DNA of 38,463 bases. It comes from a virus. Positions 23,341 to 32,223 of the stretch are shown here, piece after piece. The position numbers and the translations under genes are program-made. The notes beneath the pieces are model-generated. The model made no database searches, was not told where the DNA came from, and worked only from the letters and a program-made list of their open reading frames with translations. How positions within the stretch are numbered: position 1 is the stretch's first letter; every line of letters begins with the position of its first letter. The DNA is taken from positions 1-38,463 of the IMG/VR virus record IMGVR_UViG_3300035703_000203; one strand, given 5' to 3'.

Positions 23341-24408
23341 CTAATCCTTCTTCCTTCGCCTTGCGACGCGATCAACGACGGCCTGCTTTCCTTCGGTGGA
23401 CAGGTGGGCATAGCGACGGGTTGTCGCGGTGTCCCGGTGGCCTAGAACCTCGCCAATCTCCCCGAGCGTGGCGCCGTCCGCCAGCGCGTCTGATGCGAAC
23501 GAATGGCGAAGGTCATGCAGGCGGAAGTCCTTGAGCTTCGCCCGCTCCCTGACCAAATCCCAAACCAGAGACGGGTAGCTGTTGAGCCCGACCAGCCATC
23601 CCCCGCGCGGGGATATGGACTCGACCACCTCGCGGGCCTCCTGCGGAAAGACGATGATCTTGGGGCCTTCCTTGGCGGCGGTCTTGTGCTGGGTCAGGTA
23701 CAGGTGGCCGTCGCGGTACTGGCTGCGCTTGGCCCGTGCGATCTCAGAGAACCGCGCGCCGGTCAGGTAGAGGACGCGCAGCAGGGCCACGGCGTGGGGG
23801 TATTGAACTTCCGTCTCATCGAAGGCTTCCTCCAGCCGCTCGCGCTCGTCTGCCGTGAGGTAGCGTTTGCGCTGGGTCTCGGGGTATTTCTTGACTGCTT
23901 CGAACGGGTACTCCCCGAACTTCCAGATGGCAGAGACGAGAGCCTGGAGCCGGTTGAACGCGATAGGCCGGTCAGCCATCTTCCGCTTCAACGCCAGAAC
24001 GTCGGCCTTGCTGATCTCGGCGACGCGCCTTGTTCCCCACTCCGGCTTGATGGTGTTCTCGACGTGGCCCTTGTCGTGCCGAGCGGAGCGCTTGGCGGCG
24101 TGGTCCTTGATGTACCTGTCGCACAGGCTGGAAACCGTCTCAGAGGCCCGCAAGGCCGATCTTTCGCCCGATGGGTCCTTGCCCCGCGCAATCTCGCCGA
24201 TCCACTCCCGCGCGATCTCACGGGCCTGCGGGAGCGTCATGGCGGGGAAGTCGCCGATCTTCGGGCGGCGACGTTGGCCCGTCCCCCTTACCCGGTAGTA
24301 GAAGTAGAACGCCCGGCGACCGTCACGCACCCGGAACTCAAGGCCGGTGACTTCATCGTCCTTGAGGAGCGAGCCTTCGGGGGCGGTCTTGAGTTGGGTT
24401 AGGTTCAC
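23341..24408 (-). CDS. int: Tyrosine-recombinase integrase
   Basis: 355 residues from GTG 24408. Catalytic residues are in place: Arg219 (TGARFSEI), Lys242 (QHKTA), His298 and Arg301 (LHDLRHSFAS), His324 (LGHRD) and nucleophile Tyr333 (RRYAHL). The N-terminus (LLKDDEVTGLEFRVRDGRRAF) matches the arm-binding DUF4102-like start of P4/phage-type integrases, and a SAM-like core-binding domain follows at ~90-170. It catalyses insertion into and excision from the host chromosome. Its GTG overlaps the stop of methyltransferase-like gene B. Confidence 0.96.
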   Translation of the reverse strand: MNLTQLKTAPEGSLLKDDEVTGLEFRVRDGRRAFYFYYRVRGTGQRRRPKIGDFPAMTLPQAREIAREWIGEIARGKDPSGERSALRASETVSSLCDRYIKDHAAKRSARHDKGHVENTIKPEWGTRRVAEISKADVLALKRKMADRPIAFNRLQALVSAIWKFGEYPFEAVKKYPETQRKRYLTADERERLEEAFDETEVQYPHAVALLRVLYLTGARFSEIARAKRSQYRDGHLYLTQHKTAAKEGPKIIVFPQEAREVVESISPRGGWLVGLNSYPSLVWDLVRERAKLKDFRLHDLRHSFASDALADGATLGEIGEVLGHRDTATTRRYAHLSTEGKQAVVDRVARRRKKD

Positions 24409-25067
24409 GCTGCTTCCATGAGGGAGAGCAGCGGCGGCGTCCCATCATAAGGACGGCTCAATGCCCCCCACTGGTCCGCCATCGCCTCCGCGATCTCGGG
24501 GAAGAACCGGGCGCGCTCCTTAGCCGAACGTCCGTTGTGAAAGTACGCGTTGTACGGCTTGCCGGCCCGTGGCCCGCTCTTTCGGATGTAGGTTGCTTTC
24601 GGTGGCGCCGGAACGCGCAGGGTCGGCGCAAGCGTGGGCAACCCCTTAAGCCACAGGCATATCCGCTTGCGCTGCGGGTTTCCGAAATCGAACGGGTTGA
24701 TCTCCTGATCCTGGTGGCGAAACGCCTGCGACGGATATCCGCGCGGGTTTTCCAGAGCCACCATCGGGATCGGAGCGTTGTATAGCGCCATGAAGAGGGC
24801 AAAGGCGTCCTCTCGCTGCGCTGCGCGCCCCGGATCGTTCCAGTAGGCGGCGCCTGCATAGGTCAAATACGTGCAGGGCGGATGGCCGACCATCAAATCC
24901 CACCCGCCGCGATAAGCGACCTCCAGAGCGTCGCCCTGAATGTGCCGGCTCGGGTCTCCATCCGTCGGCAGGATGTCGCATGACCAAGCGTCATGACCCT
25001 TGGCCAAGAAGGCATCCCTCACTGTTGCACTGTATTCGCAGGCGATGAGAACGCGCTTGCGGGTCAT
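24405..25067 (-). CDS. C5-methyltransferase-like protein B
   Basis: 220 residues, paralog of the protein at 22239-22844. It has RVLIACEYSATVRDAFLAKG (motif I), GHPPCTYLTYAG (Pro-Cys at 64-65) and ALENPRGY (105-111, Glu-Asn). The C-terminal FFPEIAEAMADQW matches the paralog. A Gly/Arg/Lys-rich loop (TYIRKSGPRAGKPYNAYF) may contact DNA. It likewise lacks a full target-recognition domain. It sits immediately upstream of int in the same operon, so it would be expressed with integration functions. The substrate is unproven. Confidence 0.75.
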   Translation of the reverse strand: MTRKRVLIACEYSATVRDAFLAKGHDAWSCDILPTDGDPSRHIQGDALEVAYRGGWDLMVGHPPCTYLTYAGAAYWNDPGRAAQREDAFALFMALYNAPIPMVALENPRGYPSQAFRHQDQEINPFDFGNPQRKRICLWLKGLPTLAPTLRVPAPPKATYIRKSGPRAGKPYNAYFHNGRSAKERARFFPEIAEAMADQWGALSRPYDGTPPLLSLMEAA

Positions 25068-27251: not shown

Positions 27252-27307
27252 CCGAACAACTCCCCCTGCTGGCCTCTATCGGCCTCTGTGGCGCGGTGGA
27301 TGGTCAT
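27248..27307 (-). CDS. Candidate 19-aa peptide between DpdA-like gene and neighbour
   Basis: A 19-codon frame whose ATG overlaps the stop of the TGT-like gene and whose TGA overlaps the ATG of the next, so every base of the interval is translated in a coupled chain. It ends QQGELFG, which fits a sliding-clamp-binding peptide (Q-x-x-L-F). It could equally be a translational relay without a functional product. Confidence 0.4.
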   Translation of the reverse strand: MTIHRATEADRGQQGELFG

Positions 27308-28002
27308 GCGGCGGCCTCCTCGTAGAGATCGACCTGGACCGGGCGGCCAACCCAGCGCGGCGGGCATTGCGCGGCGTCCCAGCGGTCGGCCATCGCGCGG
27401 GCGGTGTTCTGCGGGCGGTTGTGGTTCCGGGCCACGTCGGTGCTGTCCACGCTCGCGAACGGCCACTCGCGCCCGGCAAGCTGCATCCCCCGCAGCATGT
27501 GGACGGTCGGCGTCCAGCGGTGACGCTTGACCAGCTCGTTCCAGACCTGATCCATCCGGGCCACCCACGCGGGCGCGAGGATGGTCGCGTATTCAGCAGT
27601 CGAGCCGATGCAGATGCGGGGCCACTCGTCGGCAAGGCGAAGCGCCCGCTCGACAGGTTCGTCCATGTGCCAGACCGGGGCGCCCTTGTGCCCGTGCGGC
27701 CAGTCCCGGATGAGGGCGTCCTGTTCCTGAGACCCCGCGTCGATCACGTCAGGGATGACGGCCCAGGTTGTCGGGTATTCAAGCCACTGTTCGGCCCATG
27801 CGTAGTAGGCTGGCCAGTCGGTCGGCTTGCCCACCTTCCAAGCGCTGAAGGCCCCGTTGTCCAGCATCACAGACTGCCCGATTTCGTGCATCTGGCGGAC
27901 CTGTTCGGGATGGGCATGGCTGACGCAGAAGCATCGCCCGGCGAGGCTGTAGAGCGCCGTCAGCGGCGTGATTGGCCCGCCGTGGTAGTGGATCATCCGC
28001 AT
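27304..28002 (-). CDS. TGT/DpdA-like transglycosylase-fold protein
   Basis: 232 residues. The pattern resembles tRNA-guanine transglycosylase relatives, including phage DpdA proteins that insert 7-deazaguanines into DNA. It has MLDNGAFSAWK (Asp48 to Phe52, matching the DSGGF active-site loop), AVIPDVID (84-88), HMDEP, ICIGSTAEY (strand and loop), and SVDSTDVARNHNRPQN (Asp186/Asp189 as nucleophile candidates). The usual zinc-binding cysteines are absent. At 232 residues it is much shorter than bacterial TGT. It directly follows the QueD-like gene, which supports a deazaguanine theme. The reaction is inferred. Confidence 0.65.
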   Translation of the reverse strand: MRMIHYHGGPITPLTALYSLAGRCFCVSHAHPEQVRQMHEIGQSVMLDNGAFSAWKVGKPTDWPAYYAWAEQWLEYPTTWAVIPDVIDAGSQEQDALIRDWPHGHKGAPVWHMDEPVERALRLADEWPRICIGSTAEYATILAPAWVARMDQVWNELVKRHRWTPTVHMLRGMQLAGREWPFASVDSTDVARNHNRPQNTARAMADRWDAAQCPPRWVGRPVQVDLYEEAAA

Positions 28003-28322
28003 CGCCCCACCTTCGCGTAAAGCCGTTCAACGGGCCGGCTGATCTGGACGCCTTCGCAGCCCATGACGTGCATGATCGCGGCGGCCAGAGCCTCGGAGCG
28101 GGACAGGTCGTCGGGAAGCGTGGTGTGGTCCCATGCGGTCAGCACGACGCGGAGCTTTTCTTGCAGCACCACGGCATCCCGCCCGTCCGCTTCGAACCAG
28201 CAGACAACCTCGTAGCTGTGGCCGTGCAGTTCCCGGCGCACTGGATCGCGGTGCGAGGCGCTGAAATACCAGCCGACGCCGATCATCGCCCTCTCTGCCG
28301 GGGTGTAGCGGGGGCTCGTCAT
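27993..28322 (-). CDS. QueD-like (6-carboxytetrahydropterin synthase family) protein
   Basis: 109 residues. WYFSASHR (His24) and ELHGHSYEVV (His33, His35) supply the three zinc-binding histidines of the QueD/PTPS family, and WDHTTLP (65-70) matches the catalytic Asp-His. Two expected catalytic residues are missing. The Cys usually 3 residues before LHGH is Arg here, with a shortened loop. The Glu of the C-terminal KET motif is replaced (ISRP). The fold seems kept but the chemistry may differ from queuosine-precursor synthesis. It overlaps both neighbours and pairs with the TGT-like gene. Confidence 0.75.
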   Translation of the reverse strand: MTSPRYTPAERAMIGVGWYFSASHRDPVRRELHGHSYEVVCWFEADGRDAVVLQEKLRVVLTAWDHTTLPDDLSRSEALAAAIMHVMGCEGVQISRPVERLYAKVGRCG

Positions 28323-28507
28323 GCGAACAGGTCCATTTGTGCTGGCGACGGAGCCGGGCGAACGTCAGCAAACAAGGCGCGACCTTCAGGGCTGTCCAAG
28401 TCGAAAGCGGCGTGGTCGTAGCAGACGAAATCCGTTGACCAGTGCCGGTGGCCCTCAGCCTTCGCCCGCTGGCAGGCGCGTTCGCAGCCTTCGCATTCTC
28501 GGCTCAC
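28319..28507 (-). CDS. Small Cys-rich protein with clamp-binding C-terminus
   Basis: 62 residues. CEGCERACQRA plus a later VCYDH give four Cys and nearby His, likely a zinc knuckle. The C-terminus reads AQMDLFA, a close match to the bacterial beta-clamp-binding pentapeptide (QLxLF type), at a flexible Pro-rich tail. This suggests it docks on the replicative sliding clamp. Overlaps the QueD-like gene start by ATGA. Confidence 0.7.
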   Translation of the reverse strand: MSRECEGCERACQRAKAEGHRHWSTDFVCYDHAAFDLDSPEGRALFADVRPAPSPAQMDLFA

Positions 28508-29013
28508 GCTGCTGCCTCCGTTTGCTTGGCGAGGGTGGCGGGCTCAACGCCAAGCATGTCAGCCAGGATCGTCAGAACGGCGTCCTTGCTCGCCTGAAAG
28601 TCGGCCCGACCCATCGCGCGCTCCGACTGGCTCTTGGCGGTCAAAACGACGACGGTTGATCCAGCGGTGCTGACCAACGCGTATTCGTCCATTGGCTTGA
28701 CGAAGGCGGCGATCCGCAGGGCCTCGGCGCGCGACGACGCCACTATGGTCCGCTCGTCCCGATACCCGGCGCGGATGAGGGCGTACTTCCGAAGGTGGTC
28801 GGGGGTCGGGAAGCTGTCGGCCATGTCCTCGGGGAGCGACTTCCACGCCTCATTCACGGCGGCGAAGAAGTGCCGGTGACTGGCGGGGGAACGATCCTCA
28901 TGCGGAACCAGCGAGTATTCCTCGCCGATCACATACTGGCGGTCGGCGAGCCGGGGGCGAAGCGGGACCATCTCCGTCCCGGTCCAGCGGAAAGGTTGCG
29001 GGGTGACGATCAT
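28504..29013 (-). CDS. Conserved phage protein in recombination cluster (DUF1367-like, tentative)
   Basis: 169 residues. The segment EDRSPASHRHFFAAVNEAWK followed by FPTPDHLRKYALIRAGY resembles the HRRFFALLN...FRKxxLIxAGY theme of DUF1367-type proteins. The second half is alpha/beta (SRAEALRIAAFVKPMDEYAL, VVVLTAKSQSERAM). Its position next to Gp157-like and annealing-type genes suggests work with recombination or replication intermediates. Both ends overlap neighbours. Confidence 0.65.
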   Translation of the reverse strand: MIVTPQPFRWTGTEMVPLRPRLADRQYVIGEEYSLVPHEDRSPASHRHFFAAVNEAWKSLPEDMADSFPTPDHLRKYALIRAGYRDERTIVASSRAEALRIAAFVKPMDEYALVSTAGSTVVVLTAKSQSERAMGRADFQASKDAVLTILADMLGVEPATLAKQTEAAA

Positions 29014-29525
29014 TTCACGCGCACCGCAAGCGAAGTCCCGCCGTTGGAAAGCGTCAGGCCGGGCACTTCCTCGCCTGCCAGCATCGCCTCCTTGATTGCG
29101 GCCTTGTCGGCTTCACAGGTCCAGCGGCGGAACTTCTCGGGGAGGGTTTCCGGGTCAAGGTCCGCCGGGTAGATGACGGACGGCGAGCCCTGCCGCATGG
29201 AAAGCGTCGCCTCGGGCCTCTCAATGCGCGTCAGGCCGGTTTCGTCCATGAACCGGGCCAAGGCCCCACGGGCGGACTTGACGGCCTCCTCGTAGCGTTT
29301 CTTGCGGGTTCCGTAGCTGCTGACCAGATCGCCAAGGATCGCCGCGTGCGACTGCTTTTCAGCCATCCACCGGAGAAGGCGGGAGACGGCTTCCATCGCG
29401 TCGGTCTCGCCTTCGATGGCGTCGGCGATCAGGTCTTCATCATCGGCGAACCCGCGCTCGCGAAGGGCGTCAGCAAGAGACTTGGCGGTGATGGTGTGGC
29501 GGTCCAGGTACGGGGCTGCGGTCAT
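29010..29525 (-). CDS. Siphovirus Gp157-like protein
   Basis: 171 residues. ATG 29525 has GGAGGG 6 bases upstream and overlaps the preceding stop. The layout is typical of Gp157 (PF05565): an N-terminal helix region, a coiled coil (YGTRKKRYEEAVKSARGALA), then TLSMRQGSPSVIYPADLDPE, LPEKFRR, and DKAAIKEAMLAGEEVPGLTL. Members lie in recombination or phage-resistance-related early clusters, often beside single-strand annealing proteins. Confidence 0.85.
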   Translation of the reverse strand: MTAAPYLDRHTITAKSLADALRERGFADDEDLIADAIEGETDAMEAVSRLLRWMAEKQSHAAILGDLVSSYGTRKKRYEEAVKSARGALARFMDETGLTRIERPEATLSMRQGSPSVIYPADLDPETLPEKFRRWTCEADKAAIKEAMLAGEEVPGLTLSNGGTSLAVRVK

Positions 29526-30157
29526 GCGGCGCCCTCCAGTTCCCGCTTGGCCGCCCACATCTTCGCTTCCGACTGCATGATGGTGACGACGCGGGCATAA
29601 TCCACGTCAGACATAACCGCCTTCCAGTTGGCGCGGTTGTCTTCCCACGTCGCCTTGAAGTCCTCGGCGCTGGTCGCGGCCTTCAGGCCTTTGATGGCGA
29701 AGTCGGCGGCGCTGGGGCCGGTGTCCTTCGGCTCGGCAAACTCGGCCTTCAGTTCGGCGACGTACTTGTTGTCATCGAACAGGCCCAGGAACACATCGGC
29801 GTTGAACCCGAGTTGCGACAGGAGCTTAGTGAGCGCGTCCGTGGTCGCCTTCTTCAGCGCGTCGCTGTCGATGCGGCCCTTCTGGTTTTTCCACTCCGCG
29901 CCGCCGAACATGGGGCCGAACTTGTGCGTCCGGTCGCCATGCCAGAGCGTGACGGGAACGAACACCATCAGGTCATGAAAGATCGGCTCCCCGGCGTCAT
30001 AGCCCCAGCCTTCGCCGATGGGGCCGAAGGTCTCGGTTGCCCGCTTGATCTGGTAGGCGGCGCTGATGGCGGTAAAGCTGTGGCCAAGGTTCACCTTCTT
30101 CGTGTGAGCCGGGTCGGTCTTCTCGACCTGCGACCAGATGCGGAGGTTATCGGTCAT
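29522..30157 (-). CDS. Putative single-strand annealing / recombination protein
   Basis: 211 residues from ATG 30157. The N-terminal ~140 residues (NLRIWSQVEKTDPAHTKKV, ISAAYQIKRATETFGPIGEG, SDALKKATTDALTKLLSQLG, FDDN) form a block found across phages next to Gp157-like genes. The arrangement, a strand-turn core with a helical KKATTDAL-type segment, recalls Rad52-like annealing proteins. The annealing role is an inference. The C-terminal 60 residues are helical and acidic, and may bind SSB or partners. Confidence 0.6.
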   Translation of the reverse strand: MTDNLRIWSQVEKTDPAHTKKVNLGHSFTAISAAYQIKRATETFGPIGEGWGYDAGEPIFHDLMVFVPVTLWHGDRTHKFGPMFGGAEWKNQKGRIDSDALKKATTDALTKLLSQLGFNADVFLGLFDDNKYVAELKAEFAEPKDTGPSAADFAIKGLKAATSAEDFKATWEDNRANWKAVMSDVDYARVVTIMQSEAKMWAAKRELEGAA

Positions 30158-30356
30158 GTTCGGTCTCCTGAATGGCGCGCTCCAGAACGTCGGCGCGCTC
30201 GCGGAAGTGTCTGGCGTCTCGGGGATCGGGGGCCTTGGCGAGGCGGCGGGCGAAGGCGAGGCTTTCCCGCAAATGGCCCAAGTCCCACGCTTGCGGGATG
30301 CGGCCATCGATCAGCGTCCGGTGAGTGGTTCGGGACGGCGCGTCACAACTATTCAT
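30147..30356 (-). CDS. Small hypothetical protein
   Basis: 69 residues from ATG 30356, with GGAGGGAG upstream. It opens MNSCDAPSRTTH and continues ALAFARRLAK-type helices (LRESLAFARRLAKAPDPRDA, then FRERADVLERAI). The DNA encoding CDAPSRTTH is repeated almost exactly at 21260-21279 near the HD-protein gene. No function known. It overlaps the annealing-type gene by 11 bases. Confidence 0.65.
   Translation of the reverse strand: MNSCDAPSRTTHRTLIDGRIPQAWDLGHLRESLAFARRLAKAPDPRDARHFRERADVLERAIQETEHDR
30328..30347. repeat. 20-bp dispersed repeat, copy 2
   Basis: GTTCGGGACGGCGCGTCACA, differing from 21260-21279 at a single base. Here it is the 5' coding part of the 30147-30356 gene. Confidence 0.7.
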
Positions 30357-31241: not shown

Positions 31242-31519
31242 CGACCGCTCGCCATTTCCCAGCGGTATTCCGCTGCACTCTCGGCGTGGTCGGTGTCGGC
31301 TTCGGCGAGGGCGTCCTCGGCTTCCGACAGGAAGTGTTCGAGGATCAGCGCGGAAAGCTCAGGCGTGACCGGAACCATGCGGCTGGTCTTGTGGCGCTGG
31401 CCGACCGGTGCGTGCCGGTCATAGAGGCAAAGGCCGATCTCGGTGATCTCGGCTTCCGCGTCGCGGTCAAGCGCTTGAACAAGCACTTTGACCTCAAGGC
31501 TGATGGTCGCGGTCTGCAT
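31238..31519 (-). CDS. Hypothetical protein sharing a leader with its neighbour
   Basis: 93 residues from ATG 31519, which overlaps the upstream TGA; the Arg-rich longer frame is just the antisense-frame reading of a repeat. Its first 16 coding bases are identical to those of the 32223 gene. The middle is beta-like ([20 protein letters not shown]) and the C-terminus helical and acidic ([19 protein letters not shown]). No family recognised. Confidence 0.65.
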
Positions 31520-32223
31520 CACGACACCCGCGCGAGACATTCGACCATGCCGTTCGCCAGTCGCGCCATAGCCTCTTGGCGGCGCGTTTTCTTGGCGTCG
31601 GCGTTGGCGTAGGCGTCGGCGTAGGCGTAGGCGTCGGCGTCGGCGTAGGCGTCGGCGTAGGCGTTGGCGTAGGCGTCGGCGTTGGCGTAGGCGTCGGCGT
31701 CGGCGTTGGCGTAGGCGTCGGCGTCGGCGTATTGCTCCCGGTACATCGGCTGGAGCGCCTCGCGCCATTCGGCTCTCGGCGCTCTGTCGCCGGTCAAAGC
31801 GCGCTCATGCAGCCCCTTAACCTTCAGAACGGCGTCGGTGGACAGCTTGCGAAGCTCGCGCCACTCAACGCCGAGTGGGCAGACCACATTAGCCTGCCAG
31901 TCATGGATGACGCTGAACGGAACCTTGCCGTCGAGGCGGGCGAGTTCAGCGTAGAACCGCTCGCCCCATGCGACGGCGGCGTCAAAATCCATGCCGTCGA
32001 AGAAGGTCGGCACCATTTGCGCCAGCCAACGCGGCATGACGGTTGCGGGGCACATCGCGTGGCCTTCAACATCGGGACCGAGAACGCCCAGCGCGCAGGC
32101 CAGTTGGCGTCCATCGTCGGCGGTCTTGTGCCAAGCGTTCTGAGTGAGGAGCCCGGCCTCGCGTGCGGCATGGAAGCGCTCGAACGCTTCAGCGGCGGTT
32201 TGGGCGGTGGTCGCGGTCTGCAT
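31519..32223 (-). CDS. Phage protein with (YA/DA/NA) dipeptide repeat
   Basis: 234 residues. Residues ~1-160 are a globular region ([40 protein letters not shown]). A 46-residue run of Tyr-Ala, Asp-Ala and Asn-Ala dipeptides follows, encoded by 23 hexanucleotide units, then a basic tail ([12 protein letters not shown]). Such YADA-type repeats occur in other phage early proteins of unknown function. Unit number is likely to vary by slippage in steps that keep the frame. It is the first gene of the leftward operon. Confidence 0.75.
31594..31731. repeat. 23-unit hexanucleotide tandem repeat
   Basis: An uninterrupted run of GGCGTN (plus strand; N is C, A or T), 23 units over 138 bases, lying in frame within a gene on the minus strand. 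It encodes 23 dipeptides X-Ala with X Tyr, Asp or Asn. Confidence 0.95.

Follow-up and report, generated by a model that had tools for sequence, protein, structure and literature searches.

Two overlapping genes of a virus, one encoding a QueD-like protein with an altered active site and the other a short transglycosylase of the DpdA/TGT type, very probably form a cassette for 7-deazaguanine modification of DNA, whichever reaction the QueD-like protein carries out. More specifically, the pair may be a reduced phage cassette that relies on an intermediate of the host Q pathway and in which the QueD-like protein would decarboxylate CDG (7-carboxy-7-deazaguanine, the product of QueE). We give this reading a probability of roughly 45%. 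The window, that is, the whole stretch of DNA that was analyzed, corresponds to a virus record with a length of 38463 bases. The genes and sites discussed below are the following:

27993..28322, minus strand: gene for the QueD-like (PTPS/T-fold) protein, 109 aa (open reading frame, Pfam and TIGR matches, alignment, AlphaFold model)
27304..28002, minus strand: gene for the short DpdA/TGT-like transglycosylase, 232 aa (open reading frame, phrog_887, alignment, AlphaFold model)
27993..28002, minus strand: 10 nt shared by the QueD-like gene (end) and the DpdA gene (start) (open reading frame coordinates)
28251..28253, minus strand: codon of H24, the first of three invariant zinc-ligand His
28224-28226 and 28218-28220, minus strand: codons of the other two zinc-ligand His, H33 and H35
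28035..28037, minus strand: codon (CGG) of R96, which aligns with the pterin-anchoring Glu of canonical QueD
28319-28507, minus strand: small open reading frame upstream of the pair
28504-29013, minus strand: phrog_15346 gene upstream of the pair
29010-29558, minus strand: Gam/Gp157-like gene upstream of the pair
29522-30307, minus strand: phrog_7838 exonuclease-family gene upstream of the pair

The gene pair in the window

The genes directly upstream of the pair (28319..30307) lie on the same strand and have mostly early recombination functions, and the first junctions are 4-nt overlaps. Overlaps of 4 to 10 nt between QueD-like and DpdA genes were found again in relatives, which suggests translational coupling of the two genes. 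The dN/dS ratios, calculated from the dN and dS values, lie at about 0.14-0.29 in the QueD-like gene and at about 0.03-0.16 in the DpdA gene; thus, both genes are constrained and under purifying selection, not decayed. As the initial annotation had stated, QueC, QueE, and FolE have no match anywhere in the window, and PADLOC yielded no defence family match for either protein of the pair. Elsewhere in the window, a small DNA methyltransferase-like protein (24405-25067; phrog_757, E 2e-52) adjoins an integrase and has a weak DruM match in PADLOC, and the hexamer GGCGTC is present in about 23 copies at 31594-31730, where the minus strand encodes an Ala/Asp/Tyr/Asn repeat within the open reading frame 31519-32223.

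The pair had initially been described as QueD-like plus TGT/DpdA-like. Both open reading frames are present, and structure searches, set beforehand as a test of this assignment, support both folds. The QueD-like protein matches Pfam PTPS (PF01242) with an E value of 3.8e-4 and 20.8 bits, just short of the cut-off of 22.4 bits, and TIGR03367 with an E value of 4.5e-4 and 20.6 bits, compared with a cut-off of 89.25. Pfam PTPS is matched at E<=0.01 by 34 of the 36 members of the QueD-like alignment, and a comparison of the family profile with canonical QueD gave an alignment of 99% probability (E 3e-18). A PDB search with the sequence alone gave no match and one with the family profile only weak PTPS matches. 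The AlphaFold model (pLDDT 92) retrieved QueD/PTPS structures from the PDB (best E 7e-6, TM 0.76), with QueF-like and other T-fold enzymes as weaker neighbours.

The TGT-like protein matches phrog_887, annotated as 'queuine tRNA-ribosyltransferase', with an E value of 2e-49. The top PDB match of its AlphaFold model (pLDDT 93.6) is archaeosine TGT (E 0.0097, probability 0.99), and in the viral structure library the model retrieved phage queuine-TRT/DpdA proteins, with a named match in Mufasa8 (E 9e-10) and further matches to a protein of Vibrio phage nt-1 (E 0.01) and to the phiST protein M4SLA5 (E 0.11). No match to Pfam PF23859 DpdA or PF01702 TGT was obtained at E<=1, a TGT match was absent from sequence-only PDB searches with the protein and with the family profile, and comparisons of this profile with four cellular TGTs and with other DpdA/TGT proteins were not significant. 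We therefore regard the family as a TGT relative on the basis of fold and PHROG annotation, profile homology being not significant. Residues conserved in the short DpdA family are D48 (LDNGAF), D85 (IPD), H112, R171, and D186 (SVDST); judging from the order of the motifs, D48 and D186 (73/74 aligned members each) may correspond to the catalytic Asp pair of TGT. The protein is indeed short and lacks the zinc cysteines, as had been noted: the CxCxxC motif of TGT is present in none of the 74 aligned members. Members are about 224-253 aa long (74 members, sampled ranks), so that the small size is a property of the whole family and not the result of truncation. One phage carries two copies of the short DpdA gene (L078, 3547-4236 and 4977-5675).

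Cellular TGT-fold enzymes act on tRNA, and several of the matches in the viral library are named 'queuine tRNA-ribosyltransferase', so the pair might modify tRNA or another RNA instead of phage DNA. We consider this very improbable, because the QueD-like family is also found beside Pfam PF23859 DpdA, the CxCxxC zinc motif is absent, and the DpdA of phage 9g has been demonstrated to work on DNA and did not rescue an E. coli tgt mutant (Hutinet et al. 2019, PMC6884629). We infer insertion into DNA from the relationship to DpdA and from this precedent, and the substrate and the reaction proposed below are likewise predictions.

Association with DpdA and exchange with YhhQ

Further loci were collected from viral contigs, with the QueD-like protein and its alignment as queries. 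The two genes adjoin each other in dozens of related viruses, and nearly all QueD-like genes of phages have a DpdA/TGT-like gene at a distance of about 1 kb or less; the co-occurrence that had been named as a check on the initial annotation was thus found in relatives. The neighbour belongs to the short DpdA family in all loci except six. Four of these have a different TGT/DpdA-like neighbour, namely, a Pfam PF23859 DpdA in L053 (E 2e-45), phrog_15826 proteins, putatively TGT-like as read by motif, in L048 and L056, and a further TGT/DpdA-like protein in L049. Of the other two, L042 is truncated by the contig end, and no DpdA/TGT-like gene was seen on the 4.7-kb contig of L051. Caulobacter phage DMCA is the one named phage with the pair of QueD-like and short DpdA genes. 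A scan of genomes yielded two loci only, one at the end of a Sphingomonas MAG contig and the other a chromosomal paralog in Micavibrio.

The short DpdA proteins were clustered at 90% identity, resulting in 62 clusters. As an accessory gene, 22 clusters have YhhQ, 20 have the QueD-like gene (one being the canonical QueD of L063), and none has both; the remaining 20 clusters have neither, 15 of them with flanks of at least 1.5 kb and five with short flanks. Searches of whole records gave a similar picture, with the reservation that many contigs are fragments and absence is not proof: the 48 QueD-like records contain no QueC and no YhhQ, 28 phage records contain no FolE, and 47 records with a short DpdA but no QueD-like gene contain YhhQ in 21 cases and PTPS in none. 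Named phages with the YhhQ version are Pam5 and RHph_N3_2. QueE was found in two of the 48 QueD-like records, in the order short DpdA - QueE - QueD-like (L055) and TGT-like - QueE - QueD-like (L056). The Fisher value for the mutual exclusion of the QueD-like gene and YhhQ, 1.5e-5, overstates independence, because the DpdA tree contains only four changes between the two labels and the exclusion is partly clade-based; in addition, the DpdA set was partly gathered via QueD-like searches. The four changes indicate that the supply modules were swapped repeatedly, though rarely. YhhQ is a transporter that imports preQ0 (PMC5372724), and the QueD-like gene found in its stead therefore probably has a part in the supply of the base, too.

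Genes for nucleoside 2-deoxyribosyltransferase-like proteins (PF05014) were observed at L051:521-916, L019:6621-7055, and L139:4372-4758, beside QueD-like or DpdA genes and within the Q cluster of Aminobacter phage Erebus; they could represent a further route of base exchange.

The altered active site and the candidate reaction

In the QueD-like alignment, the zinc-ligand residues H24, H33, and H35 are conserved in 36 of 36 members, D65 in 33, H66 in 34, and E77 in 35, with D65 or H66 missing in three members. The protein of the window keeps D65-H66, lacks a Cys in the loop that precedes LHGH, and carries R96 in place of the late Glu; the retained Asp-His and the missing Cys and Glu had initially been read from its sequence. 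At the position of the canonical anchoring Glu, Arg is present in 35 of the 36 rows and thereby in all 35 non-canonical members. Glu occurs only in L063, a canonical QueD that keeps both Cys and Glu and adjoins the same short DpdA family. The loop Cys is absent in 34 of the 36 rows, the exceptions being L063 and L051, in the latter of which it was judged by eye to be at a non-equivalent position. Thus, the family shares the T-fold, the three zinc His, and the Asp-His with QueD (4ntk, 2oba), but it differs by the missing nucleophilic Cys, by Arg at the anchor, and by a shorter loop separating the zinc His. A pterin substrate is unlikely, given that the Glu that anchors the pterin is replaced without exception in the non-canonical members. 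The initial annotation had suggested a reduced or different modification system using host preQ0 or a pterin; comparison supports the reduced 7-deazaguanine system well, whereas the pterin is unlikely.

We infer that the base is borrowed from the host as preQ0 or CDG. In the proposed mechanism, the 232-aa protein would be a minimal DpdA with a TIM barrel, acting as a transglycosylase to take guanine out of the phage DNA and put a 7-deazaguanine base in. The 109-aa QueD paralog, which has lost residues of the 6-carboxytetrahydropterin synthase and kept the zinc site, would act on a 7-deazaguanine intermediate of host origin and prepare the base for DpdA. Since the host would supply the intermediate, the phage would need two genes only. 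The most likely step would be the decarboxylation of CDG to 7-deazaguanine, a DpdL-like role. Cui et al., in NAR in 2023, are said to have predicted DpdL to be a CDG decarboxylase that feeds DpdA and thus leads to 7-deazaguanine in DNA; the likeness lies in the proposed action on CDG, and DpdL may or may not have the Glu-to-Arg swap. Given that the zinc site is retained and the residues of pterin chemistry are lost, CDG decarboxylation is the simplest fit and agrees with this proposed role of DpdL. CDG as the substrate is also suggested by the two phages in which QueE adjoins the QueD-like gene and QueC was not found. The Caulobacter control genome, of the species infected by DMCA, has matches to PTPS, QueC, FolE, a QueE-type model, and TGT, and none to YhhQ; with these Q-pathway matches, including the QueE-type one, CDG should be available in that host species.

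Alternatively, the QueD-like protein could still be a 6-carboxytetrahydropterin synthase with a rearranged site, which pushes the host flux to preQ0 for insertion by DpdA. The canonical QueD beside the same DpdA in L063, the retention of the zinc His and Asp-His in nearly all members, and the QueE genes between the TGT/DpdA-like and QueD-like genes in L055 and L056 would all fit this function. It is nevertheless improbable, because the non-canonical members have neither the nucleophilic Cys nor the Glu, and three have also lost D65 or H66; moreover, among Micavibrio relatives, a QueE match adjoins the PTPS match in the nine genomes where the latter is strong, whereas no QueE match was obtained in the two where it is weaker. 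A QueD paralog, which in G092 was seen to have the Arg, is present in the Micavibrio MAGs G092 and G093, and QueE was not detected in either (MAGs may be incomplete), so that at least this distant homologue may not use CDG. In one Micavibrio chromosomal locus (L137:8007-8345), the paralog, which has the Arg-Pro motif, is flanked by adk and a gene for a ribosomal protein; another chromosomal paralog is at G093:C26.

The Arg is not obviously suited to hold the aminopyrimidinone edge of CDG, which counts against the decarboxylase reading, and, given the charge swap at the anchor, another reaction is conceivable. Acting on a related purine or on a 7-deazaguanine base of the host, the protein could, for instance, hydrolyse or deaminate its substrate with the help of zinc, the substrate being held in another orientation via Arg96; the result could be a base undescribed in DNA. 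An invariant zinc site combined with a recognition residue that flips its charge in all non-canonical members, the QueF-like and other T-fold enzymes among the weaker fold neighbours, and the presence of the Micavibrio homologue in a genome in which QueE was not detected all agree with such a reaction; however, its product is hypothetical and QueE in two loci favours CDG, and we regard it as rather unlikely. Likewise less likely than not is the proposal that a QueD paralog with an inverted anchor charge makes an undescribed DNA base from a host Q intermediate, two phage genes sufficing, and that the short DpdA takes interchangeable supply modules (QueD-like, YhhQ, or QueE plus QueD-like).

A non-enzymatic role, as a zinc-stabilised partner or base carrier that hands the base to DpdA, would be in line with the tight coupling of the overlapping genes and the loss of two catalytic-site features. 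However, the zinc ligands, Asp-His, and E77 are conserved beyond the apparent need of a scaffold, the family also adjoins other DpdA types, and a DpdA subunit would not explain its replacement by YhhQ in relatives, all of which makes this role quite improbable.

Relation to known systems

The kind of cassette is itself known; the new parts are the Glu-to-Arg swap and the exchange between QueD-like and YhhQ. In the literature searched, the coverage of which is incomplete, no report was found of the pairing of QueD-like with the short DpdA or of this exchange. The 2019 survey described dpdA phages without biosynthesis genes, the modification status of which was unknown, and found YhhQ to be uncorrelated with any phage group (PMC6884629). 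The dpdA-only group and the DpdA/DpdA2 systems of that survey are similar to the pair in that they have a phage DpdA of the TGT fold, YhhQ in some cases, and a base that perhaps comes from the host; in contrast, YhhQ and the QueD paralog take turns here as the only accessory gene of a single family of short DpdA proteins.

The Q cluster of Cellulophaga phage phiST (NC_020842) contains FolE, QueD, QueE, and a TGT/DpdA-like gene, no QueC, and a small zinc-His-like protein with a GFH...HRH pattern, encoded two genes before the TGT/DpdA-like gene. It differs in that the full CDG pathway is in the phage and that the small protein, by eye, keeps Glu at the anchor position. A comparison of the QueD-like family profile with this single protein was not significant, and a scan of viral contigs for its relatives found none. 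The protein (CGPG_00067, L138:7425-7772) has relatives in other phages with Q genes and is a possible DpdL. Decarboxylation of a CDG-derived 7-deazapurine has also been proposed in another natural pathway, tubercidin synthesis, for the UbiD decarboxylase TubF, which belongs to another protein family and is proposed to act once CDG has been joined to phosphoribose (PMC6112128).

The proposed arrangement would give many of the dpdA phages without biosynthesis genes a definite rule, namely, that a short DpdA is combined with a single supply gene, with testable predictions on which base each phage uses. The QueD-like protein would be a candidate CDG decarboxylase or a candidate for some other new enzyme of base tailoring, and an example of an enzyme of the pterin pathway that was apparently re-tooled via a charge swap at a recognition residue.
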